Shown: positions 21,650-31,402 of the stretch, piece after piece
How positions within the stretch are numbered: the first letter of the stretch is position 1
Layout: every line of letters starts with the position of its first letter
Assembly: GCA_021848725.1 (NCBI GenBank)
Contig: JAJZTS010000002.1
Span: forward strand, 1-64,000
Source of the DNA: Pseudomonadota bacterium
Lineage (GTDB): Bacteria; Pseudomonadota; Gammaproteobacteria; Burkholderiales; Thiobacillaceae
DNA: 64,000 nt
Direction: 5' to 3'
Position numbers and translations under genes: made by a program
Notes under the pieces: generated by a model
What the model was told of the DNA's origin: nothing
The model's input: the letters and a program-made list of their open reading frames with translations, nothing else
The model's database searches: none

Positions 21650-22306
21650 TCAACGCAGACTGATGATGGGCCAACCCGCCTGTTCGGCATGGGCCCGGAG
21701 CGTAGCGTCGGGATCGACCGCCACCGGGTGGAGGACCTGCGCCAACAGCGGCAGGTCGTTGAGGGAATCGGAATAAAACCAGCTGTCGCCGACATCGGCC
21801 CAAGCCCGGCCCTGTTGGGCCAGCCACTGTTCCAGGCGTTCGACCTTGCCCTCGCGGAACGACGGCGTGCCGACCACGCGGCCGGTGAACTCGCCTTCGA
21901 CCGCCTCCGGCTCGGTCGCAATCAGATGCCCGACGCCCAAGTGGCGGGCAATCGGCGCGGTGACGAAGCTGTTGGTCGCGGTGACGATCACACAGACATC
22001 GGCTGCGTGTTTTTGCAGCAAGGCCGCGGTGCCGGGTGCGATCATCGGGATGACCTTCCGGCTCATGAACTCGGCATGCCAGGCATCGAGCTGCTCACGC
22101 GGGTGCCGGGCCAGCGGCTTCAACTGAAAATCGAGAAATTCGTGGATGTCCAGCGTGCCGGCCTTGTACTGGTCATAGAACTGCTGGTTTCGGGCCTCGT
22201 AGACCTCACGGTCGAGCACGCCTTTTTCGATCAGAAATTGCGCCCATTCGAAATCGGAGTCGCCGGCGAGCAAGGTGTTGTCGAGATCGAACAGGGCGAG
22301 GCGCAT
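21650..22306 (-). CDS. HAD-IB family phosphatase (SerB/histidinol-phosphatase-like)
   Basis: A 218-residue soluble HAD hydrolase. Motif I is LFDLDNTLL (nucleophile and acid Asp), motif II is VTATNS, a motif III lysine lies in SFREGKVERL, and motif IV is FYSDSLNDLPLL. Subfamily IB members remove phosphate from small molecules such as phosphoserine or histidinol phosphate; betaproteobacterial relatives are often annotated as histidinol-phosphatase, but the substrate is not proven here. The start at 22306 puts motif I at the N-terminus and has GGAAAG upstream. It is divergent from the CbiM-like gene, with 49 bases between starts. Confidence 0.85.
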   Translation of the reverse strand: MRLALFDLDNTLLAGDSDFEWAQFLIEKGVLDREVYEARNQQFYDQYKAGTLDIHEFLDFQLKPLARHPREQLDAWHAEFMSRKVIPMIAPGTAALLQKHAADVCVIVTATNSFVTAPIARHLGVGHLIATEPEAVEGEFTGRVVGTPSFREGKVERLEQWLAQQGRAWADVGDSWFYSDSLNDLPLLAQVLHPVAVDPDATLRAHAEQAGWPIISLR

Positions 22307-22355: not shown

Positions 22356-23018
22356 ATGAATCTGATCTCCGCCCACATCCCGACCCCATGGTTATGGCTG
22401 CTCTGGCCGCTGGCCGGCCTGGCGTTCTACGGCATCTGGCGCCAAGCCCGCTGGCGCATGCTGGCCGATCGCGACAACCTCAACGTCTTCGCCGCCGCCT
22501 GCGTCGTCGTGGTGGCGCTATGGTCGATCAAGGCCGGCATCCGGCCCGGCCTCAATTTCCACCTGCTCGGCGCCACCGCGCTGACTTTGATGTTCGGCCC
22601 CTGGTTCGCGTTCTTCGGTCTCAGCCTGGTCCTCGCCATCGTCACCCTATTCAATGGCCAGTTTGCCGCGTATCCGGCCAACCTGCTGATCATGGCCGCG
22701 CTGCCGATCGGCCTGAGCTGGGCGATCTACCGCGTCGTCGACCGTAGGCTACCCAACCACTTGTTCATCTATGTCTTTCTCAACGGTTTCTTCGGCTCGG
22801 CCCTGGCCGTGTCCGCCGTCGGTCTGGCCTCGACCGGTTTCGACGCGCTGGCCGGCGCCTATCCCTTGAACTACCTGCTGGAAAACTACCTGCCGTTTTA
22901 CCTGCTCATGGCCTGGTCCGAGGCCTTCGCCACCGGCATGCTGATCACCGTCCTGGTCGTCTACAAACCTGAATGGGTGAGCACCTTCGACGACCGGCGC
23001 TATCTGCACGGAAAATAG
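22356..23018 (+). CDS. Stand-alone CbiM-like energy-coupling-factor permease
   Basis: A 220-residue membrane protein with about six helices in the CbiM/NikM family, the substrate-specific part of Co/Ni ECF transporters. FHLLGATALTLMFGPW matches the HLLG region whose histidine (here His69) binds metal in NikM. The canonical N-terminus of the family is Met-His, with His2 as a ligand; here it is MNLISAHIP, so His2 is missing and a histidine appears at position 7. No CbiN, CbiQ or CbiO gene is adjacent. It converges on tonB with only 4 bases between stop codons. A small hairpin (CGCAT/ATGCG, 22320-22332) lies just upstream. The partnership with the TonB locus is inferred from context. Confidence 0.75.
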   Translation: MNLISAHIPTPWLWLLWPLAGLAFYGIWRQARWRMLADRDNLNVFAAACVVVVALWSIKAGIRPGLNFHLLGATALTLMFGPWFAFFGLSLVLAIVTLFNGQFAAYPANLLIMAALPIGLSWAIYRVVDRRLPNHLFIYVFLNGFFGSALAVSAVGLASTGFDALAGAYPLNYLLENYLPFYLLMAWSEAFATGMLITVLVVYKPEWVSTFDDRRYLHGK

Positions 23019-23022
23019 ACGT

Positions 23023-23670
23023 CTAGTTCAGCGCGAAGCTAATCGGCACCAACACCCAGCCTTCGATGGCCTCGCTGCCGCGGCGCGCCGGCACGAAGCG
23101 CCAGCGCCCGACCGCATCGCGCGCCGCCTGGTCGAGCCGGGCAAAGCCGCTGCCCTCTTTCACCTGCACCTCGCGCGCCCGGCCATCGGCGCCAACCCAT
23201 ACCCGCAACAGCAGCTTGCCCTCCTCGCCCAGCCGGCGCGACAAGGCGGGATAATTTGGCCGTGGATTGTCCAGATACTCGGCATCGAAGCGTGGCGGCA
23301 GCACCGCTGGCGGCGGACTGGGCATGGCTTGGTTGGCTACCGCTGCCGCCGGGGCCGGGGCCGCGACCGGGGCCAGCGGGGCGGCCGTTTCGGCCGACTT
23401 GGCCGCGGGCAACGCGGCGGGCAGCGCCTCGGTCGTGGCCGGCGGGCTCGGTTGCGCGCGCGGTTTCGTCGCAAGCGGCCGCGCGGCCGGTCGAGGCATG
23501 GCCGTCGGCATTGCCGGCACGGCGGCCGGCAGCAGTTGCACCGTCAAGGGGAGCGGCCCGCCCATCGGCATCGCCTTGTCGCCCAAATGCAGTCGCGCCA
23601 AGGCGAGCGCATGCACGACGAAGGAGAGCGACACCGCCCAGAGCAGCACGCGATCCGTCGTCCCCTTCAT
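23023..23670 (-). CDS. TonB energy-transducer protein
   Basis: A 215-residue TonB-family protein. An N-terminal signal anchor (LLWAVSLSFVVHALALARLHL) is followed by a long Pro/Ala-rich periplasm-spanning stretch (~45-125) and a C-terminal TonB domain with NYPALSRRLGEEGKLLLRVWV and the conserved RWRFVPAR. It couples the proton-motive force through ExbBD to outer-membrane receptors. It is the last gene of the receptor operon, 7 bases after the thioredoxin-like gene, so it is probably dedicated to the receptor encoded upstream. No exbB or exbD is in the window. Confidence 0.9.
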   Translation of the reverse strand: MKGTTDRVLLWAVSLSFVVHALALARLHLGDKAMPMGGPLPLTVQLLPAAVPAMPTAMPRPAARPLATKPRAQPSPPATTEALPAALPAAKSAETAAPLAPVAAPAPAAAVANQAMPSPPPAVLPPRFDAEYLDNPRPNYPALSRRLGEEGKLLLRVWVGADGRAREVQVKEGSGFARLDQAARDAVGRWRFVPARRGSEAIEGWVLVPISFALN

Positions 23671-23677
23671 CGTTACT

Positions 23678-24157
23678 TCAATCCGAGCCCGATTTGAGCC
23701 AGTGGCGCAACGCCATCTCGCTCACCGCACCGCTGACGCCCTGCACGCGGTGCGCCGCATCGAACCAATAGCTGCGCGGCAACTCGCCGCGCCATTGACG
23801 GTCGATAGCGAAACGCAGCCGCGCTGCCCGTGCATCGGCGAATTGCCAGTTGTCGGCATTGCCCAAGCCCAATTCGGCCAGGCGCGCAGTCACTTGCGGC
23901 GCCAACTCGGGCGCATCGACCGAGACCAGCAACACGGGCAGGTCGGGCTGCTCGCGCAGCAACCGGGCGAACAGCTCCAACTCGCCCTGGCAGTGCGGGC
24001 AGTCGACCGACCAAAACGCCAGCAGATAAGGCTTGCCGGCGAAACGCTTGGCCAACTCGGCCGGCGTGTCGGCGGCGAAGGGCTTGGGTGCGCCGGCCAA
24101 GGCCCAGCCCGCGCTCAATGCAAGCAACATCAAGCCGAATCGGAGCAGCCGCCTCAT
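23678..24157 (-). CDS. TlpA-like periplasmic thioredoxin-fold protein
   Basis: A 159-residue protein with an N-terminal signal peptide (LLRFGLMLLALSAGWALA) and a thioredoxin fold whose active site is Cys53-Pro-His-Cys56 in FWSVDCPHCQGE. A conserved cis-proline is plausible at ELPRSYWFD. The CPHC site is the DsbA type, and proteins of this kind reduce or oxidise periplasmic thiols or handle copper. The ATG overlaps the stop of the BNR-repeat gene as ATGA. Its natural partner in this operon is the preceding protein, which carries a Cys-rich CECC motif; this pairing is inference. Confidence 0.85.
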   Translation of the reverse strand: MRRLLRFGLMLLALSAGWALAGAPKPFAADTPAELAKRFAGKPYLLAFWSVDCPHCQGELELFARLLREQPDLPVLLVSVDAPELAPQVTARLAELGLGNADNWQFADARAARLRFAIDRQWRGELPRSYWFDAAHRVQGVSGAVSEMALRHWLKSGSD

Positions 24158-25335
24158 TTCGCCACCGCCATCGCCCGCAAGCCCTCGCGCTCGCTATGCC
24201 AAACCAGCCACGGCTTGCCCTGGCGGTTCAGCAGGATCGGATAATCGACGGTCCCCTCGCTGCTCGCCATGCTGCGCGCCTGGACCCAATGCCGACCGCC
24301 ATCGCGCGATTGCATCGTCCACACGCGATTGGCTTGGCCGTCATATTCCAACCAGGCCACCGTAATTGTGCGGCCGGTGGCGACGACCGCCGGGTGGCCG
24401 GCCTGTGCCGCGTCGTTGCCGAACTTATACGGGGCAGAAAATTTCTGGCCGTCATAGCGGCGGTAGAACAGGCCCTGCCGGGCCTGACCTTGGGTGAACC
24501 AGACCAGGTGCAGGCCGCCCTGCCCATCGGCTGCCAAGGCGCCGCCGTGATGTGGGCAGCCGTCGATCCGCCAATCGTCGTCGCTGGCGCGCATCAGCTG
24601 TCCGGGCTCGCTCAAATCGGCCAGCGCGAAGTCGCGCACATTGCCGTCGAACACTTGGCGCCAGAAGGCCATCGCTTCATTGCCACGCCAAGCCACGGCC
24701 AACCGGCAGCATTCGCAGCTATGCGCCGCGAAACGGCGATTCGCCCCGAAACTGGCGCCGCCGTCGGTCGATTCCGTGACATAGAGCGACGCGCCGGCAA
24801 ACTTCTCGCCGGCAGCAAGCGCAGCCTGGCGCTCGCGCGCATCGAGCCAGGCGATCAGCACGCGTTTGCCAGCAACCAACAAAGCGGGGAAACGGTGGCT
24901 GATCTCGGCGCGGTCGTCGTTCACCGTGACCGGCGCACTGAAGCTACGCCCGCCGTCGGTCGAACGGCTGTAGCGGACATGGCCGGTATAGGGTTTGGCC
25001 AAGGCGATATTCCACAGCACATGCACCGTGCCGTCGGCGGCAACGGCGATCTGCGGCCGGCTCTCGCCCTCGGCGGCAATCGTTTCCGGCAGCGCATTCA
25101 CCGTGACCGGCCAGGTGAAGTGCCGGCCGTTGTCCTCGGATTGGGCGACCTTCAACCGGCCGCTTTCGACCCGTGCCAGCCACAGCCGCCCGGCGTCATC
25201 GAAGGCAACCGCCACCGCCAGAGGCCGCGCCACGGCCTGTTGGGCCGACCACATTGCGGCCATATCGTGCTTGGGCGGCGCGGCCTGTGCCCAACCCACG
25301 GCCAAGGCCGCGACCAACAGCAATCGTCTTACCAC
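24154..25335 (-). CDS. Exported BNR/Asp-box (sialidase-fold) protein with a CxCC motif
   Basis: A 393-residue protein with a signal peptide (LLLVAALAVGWAQAAP) and four Asp-boxes (SEDNGRHF, STDGGRSF, STDGGASF, SRDGGRHW), which mark a six-bladed beta-propeller of the sialidase fold. I see no reason to call it a sialidase. Between the third and fourth boxes lies a cysteine cluster, Cys207-Glu-Cys209-Cys210, with another cysteine before His-His in DGCPHHGG: a possible metal or redox site. I chose the GTG at 25335, which overlaps the receptor stop by 7 bases and places the signal peptide at the N-terminus. It lies between the TonB receptor and the thioredoxin-like gene. Confidence 0.72.
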   Translation of the reverse strand: MVRRLLLVAALAVGWAQAAPPKHDMAAMWSAQQAVARPLAVAVAFDDAGRLWLARVESGRLKVAQSEDNGRHFTWPVTVNALPETIAAEGESRPQIAVAADGTVHVLWNIALAKPYTGHVRYSRSTDGGRSFSAPVTVNDDRAEISHRFPALLVAGKRVLIAWLDARERQAALAAGEKFAGASLYVTESTDGGASFGANRRFAAHSCECCRLAVAWRGNEAMAFWRQVFDGNVRDFALADLSEPGQLMRASDDDWRIDGCPHHGGALAADGQGGLHLVWFTQGQARQGLFYRRYDGQKFSAPYKFGNDAAQAGHPAVVATGRTITVAWLEYDGQANRVWTMQSRDGGRHWVQARSMASSEGTVDYPILLNRQGKPWLVWHSEREGLRAMAVAK

Positions 25336-27449
25336 TTCGATTCCAGCCCGATATAAAAGGTGCGCGGCAAACCCGGCGCATAGACGTTGCTGCCGGAGGT
25401 AAGCGACGCGCTCTCGGCGAAACGCTTGTCCGCCAGGTTTTGCACGCTGCCGTACAAGGCCAACTGCTTGCTCAAGGTCCAATTGCCGCGCAGGTTGAAT
25501 AAATCGTGGCCATCATACTTGGCGGTGTTGGCTTGATCCATCCAATAGCGGCCGAGGCTCAGCCACTCCAACTGCACGCGGCTGGCCGGCGTCGGCTGCC
25601 AGGTCAGCCGGGTATTGGCGATGACGCGCGGCGCCGCCTCCATCTCCTTGCCGCTGTAATCGGTCGTCGCCGACACGCGCCATTCCTCGTAGCTGTGTTT
25701 GGCATAAGACAATGCGCTATCGAAGCGCAGCGCCTTGGTCAACGGCCAGCCCAGGCCGGCCTCGATGCCCTGGTGCCGGGTCTGGCCGGCATTGACCGAT
25801 TGAGTCGCACTGGTGACCGGGTCTTTGTAGCTCAGGATGTCGTCGGTCTTGTCGATGCGATAGGCCGCCAACTGGTAATCGAGGCCGCCCGTCTTGCCGC
25901 GCAGGCCGACCTCATACTGATTCACCTTCACCGGCTTCAGCCCCAGGGCCGACTGCGCCGCCAACTGGGCCAGCGCCGCGCTGGTCGCGGCCGAGGCACG
26001 GAACAACTGGCCCTCGGACGGCGCGCGGAAGGCGTGGTTATAAGAGGCATAGAGATCGGCCTGTTTGCTCAACGCGTAGGTCGCGCCCAGCTTCGGGCTC
26101 AGGTGGTTGTAGCTGACCGTGCCGTCGGCGGCCTGGCCGTAGTAGCGGGTCACCGCCGCGCCGCCGTTCTCGCGGGTCGAGGCGGCCACGGCGCTGGCCG
26201 TGAAATTGTTGTCGAACTCATAGCGCAGATTGTCGTAGCGCAGACCGCCGGTCACGCGCAGCCGCGCGCTCGGCGAGAACTCGCCGTGGACATAGGGCGA
26301 GGCGCCGACGAAAGTGACATCGTAGTCGTAGACCCGGCTGCCGACCGAATAGCCGCGATAGATCTTGCTCACGCCGGTGCCGGTGGTATCCAAGGTGGCC
26401 AGGCGGTTCTCTTCGCGCGAGCCGGGGCTGACATCGAGGTCGATGCCGGCGATCAGGCGAGCCCGCATCGGCACGAAGTCGCGCCGCCATTTGGCCAGCA
26501 CGCCGAAGGAGCGGTTGGCCGTGGTGTAGACCGTGGGGTCATAGGCCAGCGACCAGTTGGCCAGCAGCTCCATGCTGTTGTCGCGCAGATAGGGCGTCAC
26601 CGAGACCAGGGTATCGCCCTGTTCGCGCTCGTAGGCCGAGGACAAACGCAGCGCGCCGACCTTGCGGTAGGAGATCGGCGTGTAGCTCTTGGTCGGGTCG
26701 CGCCGATAATCGTTCAGCGTCAGGGTCGAGCTACCTGCGGTCTGCTGGTCGATATTAGAGAAGGCCAGCACAGTCTTCAGCAGGGCATCGCCACCGAGAT
26801 CGCGATCCCAGCGCAGCGTGCCGGCCTGACGGTCATAACCGGTGGCGTCGCGCCAACCATCGGTATGGGTCAAGTTCAGGCTGCCGCGCCAGGCATCGTG
26901 CGCATAGGCGTCGCCGCCGTCGACGAGCAGCCGGCCCCAGCCGTAGCTGCCGGCCTCGGCCGCGGCGTTGAACTCGCGCTGGGCGGGCGGGGTCTTGGTC
27001 AACACGTTGATCACGCCGCCGATCGCGTCGGAACCGTAGAGCGCGGTACCCGGCCCCTTGCTCACTTCGATGCCGCCGGCCTGCGGCAGATTGATCTCAT
27101 ACAGCGCATTGTGGTTGAAGAAACCGGTCGACCGCGTCGGCACGCCGTCTTCCAGGTAGAGATAGACCGGGTTGGTGGTCAGCGGCTGGCGGATCGCGGT
27201 CATATGGCCTTCGCCGCCGGTGACGTTGACCCAGACGCCAGGCACCTGACCCATGATCTGCGACGGGTGGCTGGGTTTGCCTTGCGCGATGGCATCGCCC
27301 TGGATGATGCCGACGCTGGCCGGCGTTTCGGCCAGGGCCTGGCCCTCGCGCGTGCCGGTGACGGTGACCTCGCTCAGCGTGGCTTCTTGGGCCAAGGCGG
27401 AGCAGGCGTGAACGGCCATCAGGGCCGCGATGAGCGGATGGGTGCGCAT
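25329..27449 (-). CDS. TonB-dependent outer-membrane receptor
   Basis: A 706-residue receptor. The signal peptide ends near ALAQE and is followed by a TonB-box-like stretch (TLSEVTVTGTRE), a plug domain (ETPASVGIIQGDAI, then the GPGTALYGSDAIGGVINVLT signature) and a 22-strand barrel ending in LESKW. The ligand is not evident; the arrangement is nearest to siderophore, metal-chelate and cobalamin receptors. The start at 27449 gives a normal signal peptide. It is the first gene of a four-gene operon (receptor, BNR protein, thioredoxin-like, TonB), and a dyad lies upstream at 27510-27526. Confidence 0.9.
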   Translation of the reverse strand: MRTHPLIAALMAVHACSALAQEATLSEVTVTGTREGQALAETPASVGIIQGDAIAQGKPSHPSQIMGQVPGVWVNVTGGEGHMTAIRQPLTTNPVYLYLEDGVPTRSTGFFNHNALYEINLPQAGGIEVSKGPGTALYGSDAIGGVINVLTKTPPAQREFNAAAEAGSYGWGRLLVDGGDAYAHDAWRGSLNLTHTDGWRDATGYDRQAGTLRWDRDLGGDALLKTVLAFSNIDQQTAGSSTLTLNDYRRDPTKSYTPISYRKVGALRLSSAYEREQGDTLVSVTPYLRDNSMELLANWSLAYDPTVYTTANRSFGVLAKWRRDFVPMRARLIAGIDLDVSPGSREENRLATLDTTGTGVSKIYRGYSVGSRVYDYDVTFVGASPYVHGEFSPSARLRVTGGLRYDNLRYEFDNNFTASAVAASTRENGGAAVTRYYGQAADGTVSYNHLSPKLGATYALSKQADLYASYNHAFRAPSEGQLFRASAATSAALAQLAAQSALGLKPVKVNQYEVGLRGKTGGLDYQLAAYRIDKTDDILSYKDPVTSATQSVNAGQTRHQGIEAGLGWPLTKALRFDSALSYAKHSYEEWRVSATTDYSGKEMEAAPRVIANTRLTWQPTPASRVQLEWLSLGRYWMDQANTAKYDGHDLFNLRGNWTLSKQLALYGSVQNLADKRFAESASLTSGSNVYAPGLPRTFYIGLESKW

Positions 27450-27610: not shown

Positions 27611-30600
27611 ATGAACGTCCCCGCCCTGCCCCCGCTGGAGTTCCCCGAACAACTGCCCGTCTCCGCCAAGCGCGAGGAAATCGCCGCTGCGATAGCCGCG
27701 CACCAGGTGATCATCGTCTGCGGCGAGACCGGCTCGGGCAAGACCACGCAGCTACCCAAGATCGCGCTGCTCGCCGGCCGCGGCACGACCGGCCGCATCG
27801 GCATGACCCAGCCCCGGCGCATCGCGGCGCGCAGCGTGGCCAATCGCATCGCCGAGGAGATGCGCGGACGGCTGGGCGAGTTCGTCGGCTATCAGGTCCG
27901 CTTCCACGACCAGGTCGGGCCGAACACGCGGATCAAGATCATGACCGACGGCATCCTGTTGGCCGAGACCCAGTCCGACGCCGAGTTCCGCAACTACGAC
28001 ACCCTCATCCTGGACGAGGCACACGAGCGCAGCCTGAACATCGACTTTCTGTTGGGTTACCTCAAGACCCTGCTGCCGCGCCGGCCGGAGCTGAAGCTGA
28101 TCATCTCCTCCGCCACGCTGGAGGCCGAACGCTTCGCCGACTATTTCGGCGGCGCGACGGTGATCGAGGTATCGGGCCGCACTTATCCGGTCGAGCTGCG
28201 CTATCGGCCTTTGGAACCCCTCTCCCGCCGGGAGAGGGGCAGGGGTGAGGGAAACCCGGCACAGATTCTTCAAAAACCTCCCTCTCCCCCCACCCCTCCC
28301 CCGGAGGGGGAGGGGAGTGAAGATTTCAACCAGGCCCTGCTCGACGCCGTCGACGAACTGGCGCGCGAAGGCCCGGGCGACGTGCTGGTCTTCCTGCCCG
28401 GCGAGCGCGAGATTCGCGAAGCACAGGAGGCGCTGCGCAAGCACCACCCGCCGCAAACGGAGATCCTGCCGCTCTATGCCCGGCTCTCCGTGGCCGAGCA
28501 GGAGCGCATCTTCCAGTCGCATGCCGCGCGGCGCATCGTGCTCGCGACCAACGTGGCCGAGACCTCGCTCACTGTGCCCGGCATCCGCTATGTCGTCGAC
28601 ACCGGTCTCGCCCGGGTGAAGCGCTACTCCCTACGCAACAAGATCGAGCAGCTCAAGATCGAGAAGGTCGCCCAGGCCTCGGCCAACCAGCGCGCCGGCC
28701 GCTGCGGCCGGGTCGCGGCCGGCGTCTGCATCCGACTGTTCGACGAGACCGACTTCGCCGCAAGGCCGCGCTACACCACGCCGGAACTGCTGCGCTCGTC
28801 GCTGGCCGGCGTCATCCTGCGGATGAAATCGCTCGGCCTGCCCGACATCGAGACCTTCCCCTTCCTCGATGCGCCGGAACCCAAGCGCGTGCGCGACGGC
28901 TATCAGTTGCTGCAAGAACTCAACGCCATCGACGAGACCAACCGGCTGACCAAGATCGGCCAGCAGTTGGCGCAACTGCCGCTCGACCCGCGCATCGGCC
29001 GCATGCTGATCGCGGCGCGGGAGACGGCCTGCCTGGCCGAAATGCTGGTCATCGCCGCCGCCTTGACCGCGCAGGACCCGCGCGAACGGCCGCACGAGCA
29101 GACCCAGGCCGCCGACGAGAAGCACAAGCGCTTCGCCGACGAGAACTCCGATTTCATCGCCCAGCTCAACCTCTGGCGCCATATCAACGCGCTCGACACC
29201 CAGCGCAAATCGAACAAGCAGTTCCGCGAAACGCTGAAGCGCGAATTCATCTCCTACCTGCGCGTACGCGAATGGCGCGACGTGCACAATCAACTCGCCA
29301 CGCTGGTGAAAGAGATGGGCTGGCGGGTGAACGAGCAAGTCGCGGACTATGCCAGCCTGCACCAGGCCCTGCTGCCGGGCCTGCTCGGCAACCTGGGCTT
29401 CCTCACGGAAGACGGGGTTTACCTCGGCGGGCGCGACATGAAGTTCCTGATTCATCCGAGTTCCGGGGTGAAGAAGAAACCGAAGTGGCTGATGGCGGCC
29501 GAGATCGTCGAGACCAAACGCATCTATGCCCGCGGCGTGGCCCGCGTCGAGCCGCAGTGGATCGAGCATGCGGCCAAGCACTTGCTGAAGATTTCCTACA
29601 GTGAACCGCATTGGGAAAAGCGCCCGGCCCATGTCGCCGCCGCGATGCGGGCCACGCTGTATGGCCTGCCGGTGGTGGCCGGACGCAAAGTGCACTACGG
29701 TCCGCTCGACCCCGCGCTGTGCCGCGAGATCTTCATCCGCGCCGCGCTGGTCGAAGGCGAATACGAAACCCGCGCGCCCTTCTTCGCCCACAACACCAAG
29801 CTGCGGCAAGCGATCGAAGACCTCGCCCACCGCGCCCGCAACCCGCGCCTGATCCCAGACGAGGCGACGCTGTATGCCTGGTTCGATGCCCGCATTCCCG
29901 AGGGCATCCACAACGGCCGCGACTTCGAGCAATGGCGGCGCGAGGCCGAGGCGAAGTCGCCGCGCCTGCTGTTCCTCGAGCGCGAGGCCTTGCTCAAAGA
30001 GCGTGGCGCCGACAATGCCGACTTCCCGCGCGCGCTCGACCTGTCCGGCGTACGCTTCGCCTTGGCTTATCGCTTCGAGCCGGGCGAGGCCGACGACGGC
30101 GTGACCCTGCTGGTACCGCTGGCCGCACTGAACCAAGTGCCGGCCGCGCGTTGCGACTGGCTGGTACCGGGCTTGCTGGAAGAAAAAATCACCGCGCTGC
30201 TCAAATCGTTGCCACAGCAAAGCCGACGCAACTTCGTACCGGTGCCGGAATACGCACGGGCCGCGACCGAGGCACTCGGCGCCACCACGCAGACGGGCAC
30301 CTTGATCGAAACCCTCTCGGCCTTCCTGCACAAGAGCACAGGCGCGAGCATCCCGCGCGATGCCTGGCGCGAGGACACCCTGCCGGCCCATCTACGGATG
30401 AACTACCGGGTGTTGGACGAGGCCAACCGCGTGCTCGGCGAAGGCCGCGACCTCGCCGCGCTGCGGCAAAAACTCGGAGCCGAGGCCAGCCGGCAAGCGC
30501 AGCAGGCCACCAGCAGCATGGAACGCGACAGCGTCAGCCGCTGGGACTTCGGCGATCTGCCCAGCCAAGTGGAGGTGAGCCAAGGCCAGCGCAAGCTGGC

Positions 30601-31402
30601 GGCCTTCCCCGCTCTGGTCGAGGTGGAGGGCAAGGTGGAGCTGCGCTTCGCCGACAGCCTGCAGGCCGCGCAGGAGCGCCATCGCCGCGGCGTCTGCCGC
30701 CTGCTCTGGCTGGCCTTTCCCGATCTTTTGAAGCAGACCGAGAAAGACCTGGCTGCGCGGTTGAAGAGCGCCTGTATGCATTACGGCCTTTTAGACAAGG
30801 GCCTGAACTGCGACGGCCTGTTGCGCGACGCGCTCTACAGTGCTGCCCGCGCCAGCCTAGCGGTGGATGCCGCCGAGCTGCGCAATCAGACCGCGTTCGA
30901 GAGCGCAGCCCAGGCCGCCCGGCCCAAGCTGGCCGAGCATGCCCGGGAAACCGTGCGACTGGCCGCCGAATGCCTGAGCCACGCCCATAGCCTGAGCCAG
31001 GCCTTGGCTCGACCGTCAGTGCCGCGCGAGGCCGTGGCCGACATGCAAGGACAACTGAAACAACTGGTATTTCCGTACTTTATCTCTGTGCTCGCGCCGC
31101 AACGTCTGGCACAGTTGCCCCGCTATCTGCGCGGCATGGAAAAGCGCCTGGAGAAGCTGGCCAAGAACCCCGCGCGCGACGCCCAGAACATGCGGGCCAT
31201 GGCCGGCCTGCTCGCCGCTTGGCGCGCCCGCCAACAGCGCTTGCAAGCGGCGAGCGGCAGCACGGCGGCGATGGAAGACTTCCGCTGGCGGCTGGAAGAA
31301 CTGCGCATCAGTCTATTCGCACAGGAGCTGAAGACCCCGGAACCGGTTTCGGTCAAGCGACTGGAAAAACTCTGGCAAGAGATTATTGCCGCGCACGGTT
31401 AA
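27611..31402 (+). CDS. hrpA: ATP-dependent RNA helicase HrpA (DEAH box) with an in-frame repeat insertion
   Basis: A 1263-residue DEAH-box helicase. Motif I GETGSGKTT, DEAH, SAT in motif III and the QRAGRCGR motif VI are intact, followed by the winged-helix/ratchet region, OB-like domain and the long HrpA-specific C-terminus. HrpA acts on mRNA and stalled ribosomes. Residues ~203-235 are encoded by a 99-base double-hairpin repeat (28217-28315) inserted in frame between the first and second RecA-like domains, giving an Arg/Gly then Pro-rich linker (RRERGRGEGN, PPSPPTPPPEGEG). The start at 27611 gives MNVPALPPLEF, which fits the family; a longer open frame upstream is not needed. Confidence 0.92.
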   Translation: MNVPALPPLEFPEQLPVSAKREEIAAAIAAHQVIIVCGETGSGKTTQLPKIALLAGRGTTGRIGMTQPRRIAARSVANRIAEEMRGRLGEFVGYQVRFHDQVGPNTRIKIMTDGILLAETQSDAEFRNYDTLILDEAHERSLNIDFLLGYLKTLLPRRPELKLIISSATLEAERFADYFGGATVIEVSGRTYPVELRYRPLEPLSRRERGRGEGNPAQILQKPPSPPTPPPEGEGSEDFNQALLDAVDELAREGPGDVLVFLPGEREIREAQEALRKHHPPQTEILPLYARLSVAEQERIFQSHAARRIVLATNVAETSLTVPGIRYVVDTGLARVKRYSLRNKIEQLKIEKVAQASANQRAGRCGRVAAGVCIRLFDETDFAARPRYTTPELLRSSLAGVILRMKSLGLPDIETFPFLDAPEPKRVRDGYQLLQELNAIDETNRLTKIGQQLAQLPLDPRIGRMLIAARETACLAEMLVIAAALTAQDPRERPHEQTQAADEKHKRFADENSDFIAQLNLWRHINALDTQRKSNKQFRETLKREFISYLRVREWRDVHNQLATLVKEMGWRVNEQVADYASLHQALLPGLLGNLGFLTEDGVYLGGRDMKFLIHPSSGVKKKPKWLMAAEIVETKRIYARGVARVEPQWIEHAAKHLLKISYSEPHWEKRPAHVAAAMRATLYGLPVVAGRKVHYGPLDPALCREIFIRAALVEGEYETRAPFFAHNTKLRQAIEDLAHRARNPRLIPDEATLYAWFDARIPEGIHNGRDFEQWRREAEAKSPRLLFLEREALLKERGADNADFPRALDLSGVRFALAYRFEPGEADDGVTLLVPLAALNQVPAARCDWLVPGLLEEKITALLKSLPQQSRRNFVPVPEYARAATEALGATTQTGTLIETLSAFLHKSTGASIPRDAWREDTLPAHLRMNYRVLDEANRVLGEGRDLAALRQKLGAEASRQAQQATSSMERDSVSRWDFGDLPSQVEVSQGQRKLAAFPALVEVEGKVELRFADSLQAAQERHRRGVCRLLWLAFPDLLKQTEKDLAARLKSACMHYGLLDKGLNCDGLLRDALYSAARASLAVDAAELRNQTAFESAAQAARPKLAEHARETVRLAAECLSHAHSLSQALARPSVPREAVADMQGQLKQLVFPYFISVLAPQRLAQLPRYLRGMEKRLEKLAKNPARDAQNMRAMAGLLAAWRARQQRLQAASGSTAAMEDFRWRLEELRISLFAQELKTPEPVSVKRLEKLWQEIIAAHG
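28217..28315. repeat. REPIN-like double hairpin inserted in frame in hrpA
   Basis: Two inverted REP-like units. The left unit is a perfect 10-bp hairpin (28217-28226/28230-28239) followed by CAGGGGTGAGGG. The right unit begins CCCTCTCCCC and ends in a 10-bp hairpin (28293-28302/28306-28315). The units face each other across ~30 bases, the arrangement called REPIN. The total is 99 bases or 33 codons, so the hrpA frame is kept. CCCCTCTCCC-type palindromes are common in proteobacterial genomes, usually between genes. Confidence 0.82.

Follow-up and report, generated by a model that had tools for sequence, protein, structure and literature searches.

The window analysed here, a stretch of 64,000 nucleotides from a Pseudomonadota bacterium of the Thiobacillaceae (GenBank assembly GCA_021848725.1, contig JAJZTS010000002.1, positions 1 to 64,000), carries a cassette of four coupled genes encoding a TonB-dependent receptor (TBDR), a secreted beta-propeller with invariant cysteines, a periplasmic TlpA/ResA-like thiol-disulfide oxidoreductase and a TonB energy transducer. 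Together these genes form a real, mobile module, and we propose, with a probability of roughly 0.6, that it is a TonB-dependent uptake cassette for copper, or a copper chelate, that employs a cysteine propeller and a TlpA-like partner.

The source genome (G000; 2.38 Mb in 107 contigs, 89% complete, with the window on contig 18) has its closest named relatives among metagenome genomes of Thiobacillus/Hydrogenophilaceae. A preliminary description of the locus had four coupled genes, two of the junctions being overlaps (7 and 4 bases long). Both open reading frame (ORF) calls and junction reads agree with it and place the genes on the minus strand. The receptor gene, whose best start is the ATG at 27449, preceded by GAGG, stops at 25329 and overlaps by 7 bases the propeller gene, which runs from a GTG at 25335 to 24154. 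The latter shares 4 bases (ATGA) with the TlpA-like gene, which starts with the ATG at 24157 and ends at 23678, 7 bases before the TonB gene. A scan for promoters and terminators gave no signal above shuffled controls, and an Rfam scan of the window showed no RNA regulators, cobalamin riboswitches included.

In a scan of 84,980 species genomes with the propeller profile, at least 477 stretches matched, and the best 80, representing 79 loci, were kept. Within 6.5 kb of the propeller we found a TBDR at 76 of the 79 loci, TlpA at 67, TonB at 55, ExbB at 35 and ExbD at 34; TlpA, TonB, ExbB and ExbD were always encoded on the same strand as the propeller. Gene order differs, the TBDR gene standing first in some loci and propeller-TlpA in others, and the receptors come from two or more clades, which indicates that the constant core is a propeller, TlpA and a receptor. 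Since the module recurs at unrelated sites in many genera, the grouping of the four genes is far beyond chance. Its hosts include the ammonia oxidisers Nitrosomonas and Nitrosospira, the nitrite oxidiser Nitrotoga, and Thiobacillus, Sulfuricella, Dechloromonas and others; in Nitrosomonas and Nitrosospira the propeller and receptor frequently occur without TlpA. Strong orthologues of the propeller (E < 1e-80) are present in 21 of 369 genomes of the class, the window's genome included. At six loci (L103, L108, L120, L128 and L132, and also L020) a second cassette accompanies the propeller module; it encodes a TBDR, a DUF4198-like protein, a NapH/NosR-like 4Fe-4S membrane protein and a DsbD_2-type membrane protein, and is possibly a reductive metal-import route.

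An AlphaFold2 model of the propeller, calculated from 77 sequences, reached a pLDDT of 92.3. Its top structural matches are CylK (Z 29.6 over 331 residues, 3.2 Å) and Photorhabdus lectins (Z 28.9), and Foldseek puts sialidases first (E 3e-10). The protein is probably seven-bladed, judging from the best structural matches and the blade number of their folds. It shares its fold and Asp-box repeats, visible in the propeller alignment (A1), with GH33 sialidases and other Asp-box propellers, and its homologues are annotated as 'sialidase family protein'; it differs from GH33 enzymes in its four invariant cysteines, in having non-sialidase propellers as top structural matches, and in a Pfam BNR_2 score of 31.0, just under the cut-off of 31.4.

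The CxCC motif noted in the preliminary description is CECC at residues 207-210. The 77 aligned orthologues have 24 invariant columns, including C207, C209, C210, C260 and P261, and 69 of them carry precisely four cysteines beyond residue 40. All four cysteines of the CxCC...CP motif are kept in 13 of 13 distant homologues, a set from which one row (P0004), a non-homologue, was left out, and the three plasmid homologues that were read all retain the motif. The histidines of the propeller are near-invariant in the orthologues. In the strand order of the model, H147, CxCC, CPHHG and H314 fall in consecutive blades, each of them at the first strand or immediately ahead of it. The central pocket of a propeller forms around these first strands, and the order of strands thus suggests that the four elements may share one pocket.

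The TlpA-like protein retains the features of a thiol-disulfide oxidoreductase: C53, C56 and P127 are invariant in 30 sequences, the cis-Pro loop GELPR is conserved, and ResA is matched at 1.8e-9. The Pfam AhpC-TSA score is 24.1, under the cut-off of 26. A precedent exists in Bradyrhizobium, where TlpA acts as the reductant of CoxB and of the copper chaperone ScoI (PMC6696091). The TlpA-ScoI-PcuC system resembles the cassette as proposed here in that a periplasmic thioredoxin reduces the cysteines of a copper site and has a PCuAC partner, but it includes no propeller, and its clients are ScoI and CoxB. The TonB of the cassette (TonB_C, 71.1 bits versus a cut-off of 24.6) is one of three TonB_C proteins encoded in the genome.

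The receptor, of a clade that we call TBDRb, scores 152 bits for the Pfam barrel and 54 bits for the plug. When the TBDRb profile was compared to solved structures, YncD/PqqU was the best match (E 6e-85), followed by CirA, PhuR and the copper receptor CrtA (PDB 9rvq; PMC12914433), for which the best-scoring stretch spans the C-terminal part only. This ranking could indicate that the receptor imports an organic cofactor similar to PQQ, which the propeller would bind as PqqU/YncD and YncE might, the cysteines being structural. YncE is also a propeller, matched at Z 24.0, and YncD and YncE are encoded close together, as the receptor and periplasmic propeller of the cassette are. We consider such a role improbable. 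YncE holds no special rank among the many propellers matched, and the receptor reaches 89.6 bits in the PqqU family model NF041535, whose cut-off is 1200. Among the 11 residues that contact PQQ in PqqU (PMC12124388), only the equivalents of K274 and R365 are matched in the TBDRb profile, which has V, N and R at Y99, R304 and R365; the thioredoxin partner and the copper neighbours described below also speak against it. PQQ import by this receptor was rejected, since the contact residues are not kept. By the terms of the preliminary description, its proposal would fall if the receptor belonged to a clade known to take an organic ligand; the nearest solved structure is that of the PQQ importer PqqU, but the PqqU ligand residues are not conserved in the receptor.

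Two near-invariant histidines of the receptor plug lie at most two columns from the PqqU ligand residues Q84 and Q121, a placement that would suit a metal-chelate ligand. H82, H113, H585 and H648 are conserved at 86-88% in 41 TBDRb sequences, among which no cysteine or methionine is conserved, so that the CxxxM-HxM copper site is absent. Membership in the OprC/NosA family, with which the cassette would share copper entry through a TBDR, was rejected on this basis and on a score of 34.1 bits in TIGR01778 (cut-off 472); receptors that are weakly OprC-like, below the cut-off, occur near 16 of the 79 propeller loci. CrtA likewise has conserved histidines and no conserved cysteine or methionine (PMC12914433), which is a weak criterion of likeness, and other solved structures match the receptor better than CrtA does. 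A search of plasmids for the receptor returned distant receptors only.

The genes found beside the propeller point to copper as the substrate. Copper proteins are encoded near it at 18 of the 79 loci, namely PCuAC (PF04314) at nine, Cu/Zn superoxide dismutase (SOD; PF00080) at six and Csp1 (TIGR04401, 152 bits versus a cut-off of 100) at three, and none of these profiles matched within the control regions, 221 kb of DNA from related genomes, for which equal density would predict approximately 4.8 matches. For PCuAC alone, the Poisson chance of nine loci is near 5e-8 if two copies per 3 Mb are assumed and phylogeny is ignored. In six Thiobacillus-type loci (L114, L115, L109, L097, L080 and L076) the Cu/Zn SOD gene lies immediately 5' of the propeller gene. 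At L169 a CopAB fusion is convergent with the TBDR-propeller pair. DUF2946, the family of the copper-responsive leader gene product CruR (PMC9426467), is detected by Pfam near two propeller loci (L020, in Sulfuricella T08, and L021), and by motif at L021 only, apart from an apparently spurious frame in L137. Plasmid homologues of 24-25% identity stand in copper contexts where examined, with neighbours such as a copper oxidase, azurin, a copper-binding protein, CusA, a P-type ATPase or CopC: the Methylomagnum homologue has CopC and amo/pmo nearby, and those of Sulfitobacter, Pseudosulfitobacter, Tritonibacter and Marinovum lie among multicopper oxidase, azurin and CusA genes. The metal foreseen, free or chelated, in the preliminary description is thus probably copper; nothing in the analysis points to cobalt, nickel or zinc.

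Several observations weigh against copper uptake. The loci are phylogenetically related, and the copper-marker profiles were selected after the neighbourhoods had been viewed. Because of that late choice of markers, we also counted Pfam families without selection across 91 putative operon partners. DUF302 (7), Sod_Cu (6), PCuAC (6) and Crp-type HTH (6) lead the 75 families, a result in favour of copper; the gene upstream of SOD in the Thiobacillus-type loci probably encodes the tallied DUF302 protein. Many independent propeller loci carry no copper marker, and among 20 class-wide neighbourhoods drawn regardless of copper only one (L169) has a clear copper gene. Copper neighbours were also not confirmed at L165, which has a two-component pair, or at L166, with a PEP-utilising enzyme and a ParA-type ATPase. 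Within the window itself there is neither a copper gene nor a CruR gene, and no RNA regulator. Among solved structures its receptor is closest to a PQQ importer, and the receptors paired with propellers come from two or more distinct clades. H205, H262, H263 and H314 of the propeller are mostly absent from distant homologues, which means that no single set of Cys and His residues makes up the site, and the plasmid copper islands resemble efflux or detoxification rather than uptake. With copper markers at 18 of 79 loci and at one of 20 class-wide neighbourhoods, we regard the copper reading as probable, not proved. At L165 the response regulator and histidine kinase genes (approximately 7.7-9.8 kb) lie directly upstream of the distant propeller gene, and it is possible that this pair senses metal.

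Propeller and TlpA could instead form a periplasmic device that buffers copper, or carries out repair, under copper stress and has no part in uptake, the receptor being a secondary association. Four cysteines and a reductant would suit detoxification, and distant homologues are found in copper-resistance islands with no adjacent TBDR. We give this explanation a low probability: the partners PCuAC and SodC use or carry copper, and the presence of a TBDR at 76 of 79 loci, with TonB and ExbBD at many, argues for import. We likewise think it unlikely that the cassette imports another metal (iron, manganese or zinc), or several metals, with propeller and TlpA as a redox release device and the copper genes marking general metal islands. 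The receptor profile does match siderophore receptors, and in Stenotrophomonas a TBDR is paired with a periplasmic thioredoxin-fold protein under MntR control (PMC13217887). That pair, which is linked to manganese and iron limitation, has a CQNC motif in the plug and no reported propeller, and the recurrent partners at our propeller loci are copper proteins.

Under the copper-uptake reading, the receptor would carry copper, probably chelated, over the outer membrane, driven by the TonB of the cassette. The periplasmic propeller would then accept copper at a thiolate-rich site formed by the four invariant cysteines of CxCC and CP and completed by conserved histidines at the entries of adjacent blades, and the TlpA-like thioredoxin would reduce either these cysteines or the copper, such that the site is loaded as Cu(I). 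From there PCuAC and other chaperones, as well as cuproenzymes, could receive the copper. The source genome encodes three COX1-family oxidases and one PCuAC, which would be the recipients; the cassette itself encodes no inner-membrane importer. More tentatively, the CxCC...CP propeller may represent a new class of copper protein, in which a cysteine-lined funnel strips chelated copper by thiol reduction and is recharged by its dedicated TlpA, so that TonB-dependent copper uptake would gain a defined acceptor in the periplasm, the same site being reused in copper-resistance islands; we hold this extension to be somewhat doubtful.

TonB-dependent copper uptake as such is already known from OprC, CrtA and TccA. 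The cassette is close in outline to the cruR-crtA-crpH operon of Bordetella (CrtA/BfrG), which includes a TBDR for copper chelates (PMC12914433, PMC9426467) and relatives of which in some cases carry ExbBD/TonB, PCuAC and Sco genes; CrtA operons encode PepSY_TM and often CruR, whereas the window cassette has neither and encodes the cysteine propeller and TlpA instead. By its description, Caulobacter TccA is also comparable, as a TBDR with a predicted histidine-based site that is required for the copper supply of the aa3 oxidase (PMC12617631), but no propeller-TlpA cassette is reported for it. The preliminary description knew of no pathway with this set of genes. The literature searched, which covered few subscription papers, yielded neither a sialidase-like propeller linked to copper and TonB nor a CxCC...CP propeller with a dedicated thioredoxin partner.

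The CbiM-like gene on the plus strand converges on the TonB gene with 4 bases between the stops, as the preliminary description had it. That description proposed it as the permease of a single five-gene route by which a metal or metal chelate could move from outside into the cytoplasm; with CbiM as the permease, the metal would be cobalt or nickel. The four-gene part of this proposal co-occurs widely; the fifth member does not. The protein does pass Pfam CbiM (105.5 bits, cut-off 23.1), and it adjoins the cassette convergently in the window and its genus, but CbiM is found beside the propeller at just three of the 79 loci (L072, L073 and L099), all from that genus. Among 61 related genomes, 45 have a gene of the CbiM family and 11 have the propeller, which in nine of the latter shows an identity of at least 46%. 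The order divergent HAD phosphatase-CbiM-hrpA exists without the cassette at L052, L055, L057, L059, L061, L064-L066 and L071, and in G003, a genome of the same genus that is 100% complete in one contig, the hrpA frame begins a few bases past the CbiM stop, with no cassette. In the window, 4.6 kb containing all four cassette genes separates CbiM from hrpA. The best explanation is that the cassette was placed between CbiM and hrpA in the window's lineage, and we judge the CbiM-like gene to be part of an older, family-wide HAD-CbiM-hrpA neighbourhood.

CbiM and CbiN constitute the minimal cobalt transporter (PMC7689651). The window protein, which begins MNLISAHIP, is missing the metal-binding MHIPDG start. 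Solitary CbiM homologues have variable N-termini and keep one histidine (FHLLG), and canonical paralogues of the same family have MHIPDG. The genome (89% complete) shows no PF02361 match for the T-component CbiQ. CbiM was rejected as the inner-membrane step because of synteny, the N-terminus and the lack of CbiQ, and a five-gene pathway appears very improbable. The orphan protein of this CbiQ-less genome belongs to a gene order, HAD-CbiM-hrpA, that is conserved across the family.

The features of the locus are listed in Table 1. Within hrpA, a dispersed palindromic repeat lies in frame at 28217-28345, with arms CCCCTCTCCCG/CGGGAGAGGGG and CCCCTCCCCC/GGGGGAGGGG; it has 21 matches in the genome, its own copy counted.

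Table 1. Genes and motifs of the cassette and its flanks (positions in the window).
Feature	Position	Strand	Basis
TBDR, 706 aa, clade TBDRb	25329..27449	-	ORF calls, Pfam, profile matches
Secreted beta-propeller, 393 aa, four invariant Cys	24154..25335	-	ORF, alignment, AlphaFold2 model
Propeller CxCC motif, residues 207-210, C-E-C-C	24706..24717	-	Orthologue alignment
Propeller CPHHG motif, residues 260-264; C260 and P261 invariant	24544..24558	-	Alignment
Periplasmic TlpA/ResA-like thiol-disulfide oxidoreductase, 159 aa	23678..24157	-	Pfam, CxxC, cis-Pro loop
TlpA-like CPHC active site, residues 53-56	23990..24001	-	C53 and C56 invariant
TonB energy transducer, 215 aa	23023..23670	-	Pfam TonB_C
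CbiM-like protein, 220 aa, judged not a member of the system	22356..23018	+	Pfam, synteny
HAD-IB phosphatase, histidinol-phosphatase-like, ancestral CbiM neighbour, not a member	21650..22306	-	Synteny
hrpA-type helicase, ancestral downstream CbiM neighbour on the far side of the cassette, not a member	27611..31402	+	Synteny

Copper acquisition by Gram-negative bacteria is poorly known, and the periplasmic recipient behind TonB-dependent receptors is an open question. Several hosts of the module depend on copper enzymes. If the copper-uptake reading is correct, the annotation of the propeller would change from sialidase to copper or thiol-redox protein. The solitary 'CbiM' of this family would drop out of cobalt-uptake annotations.

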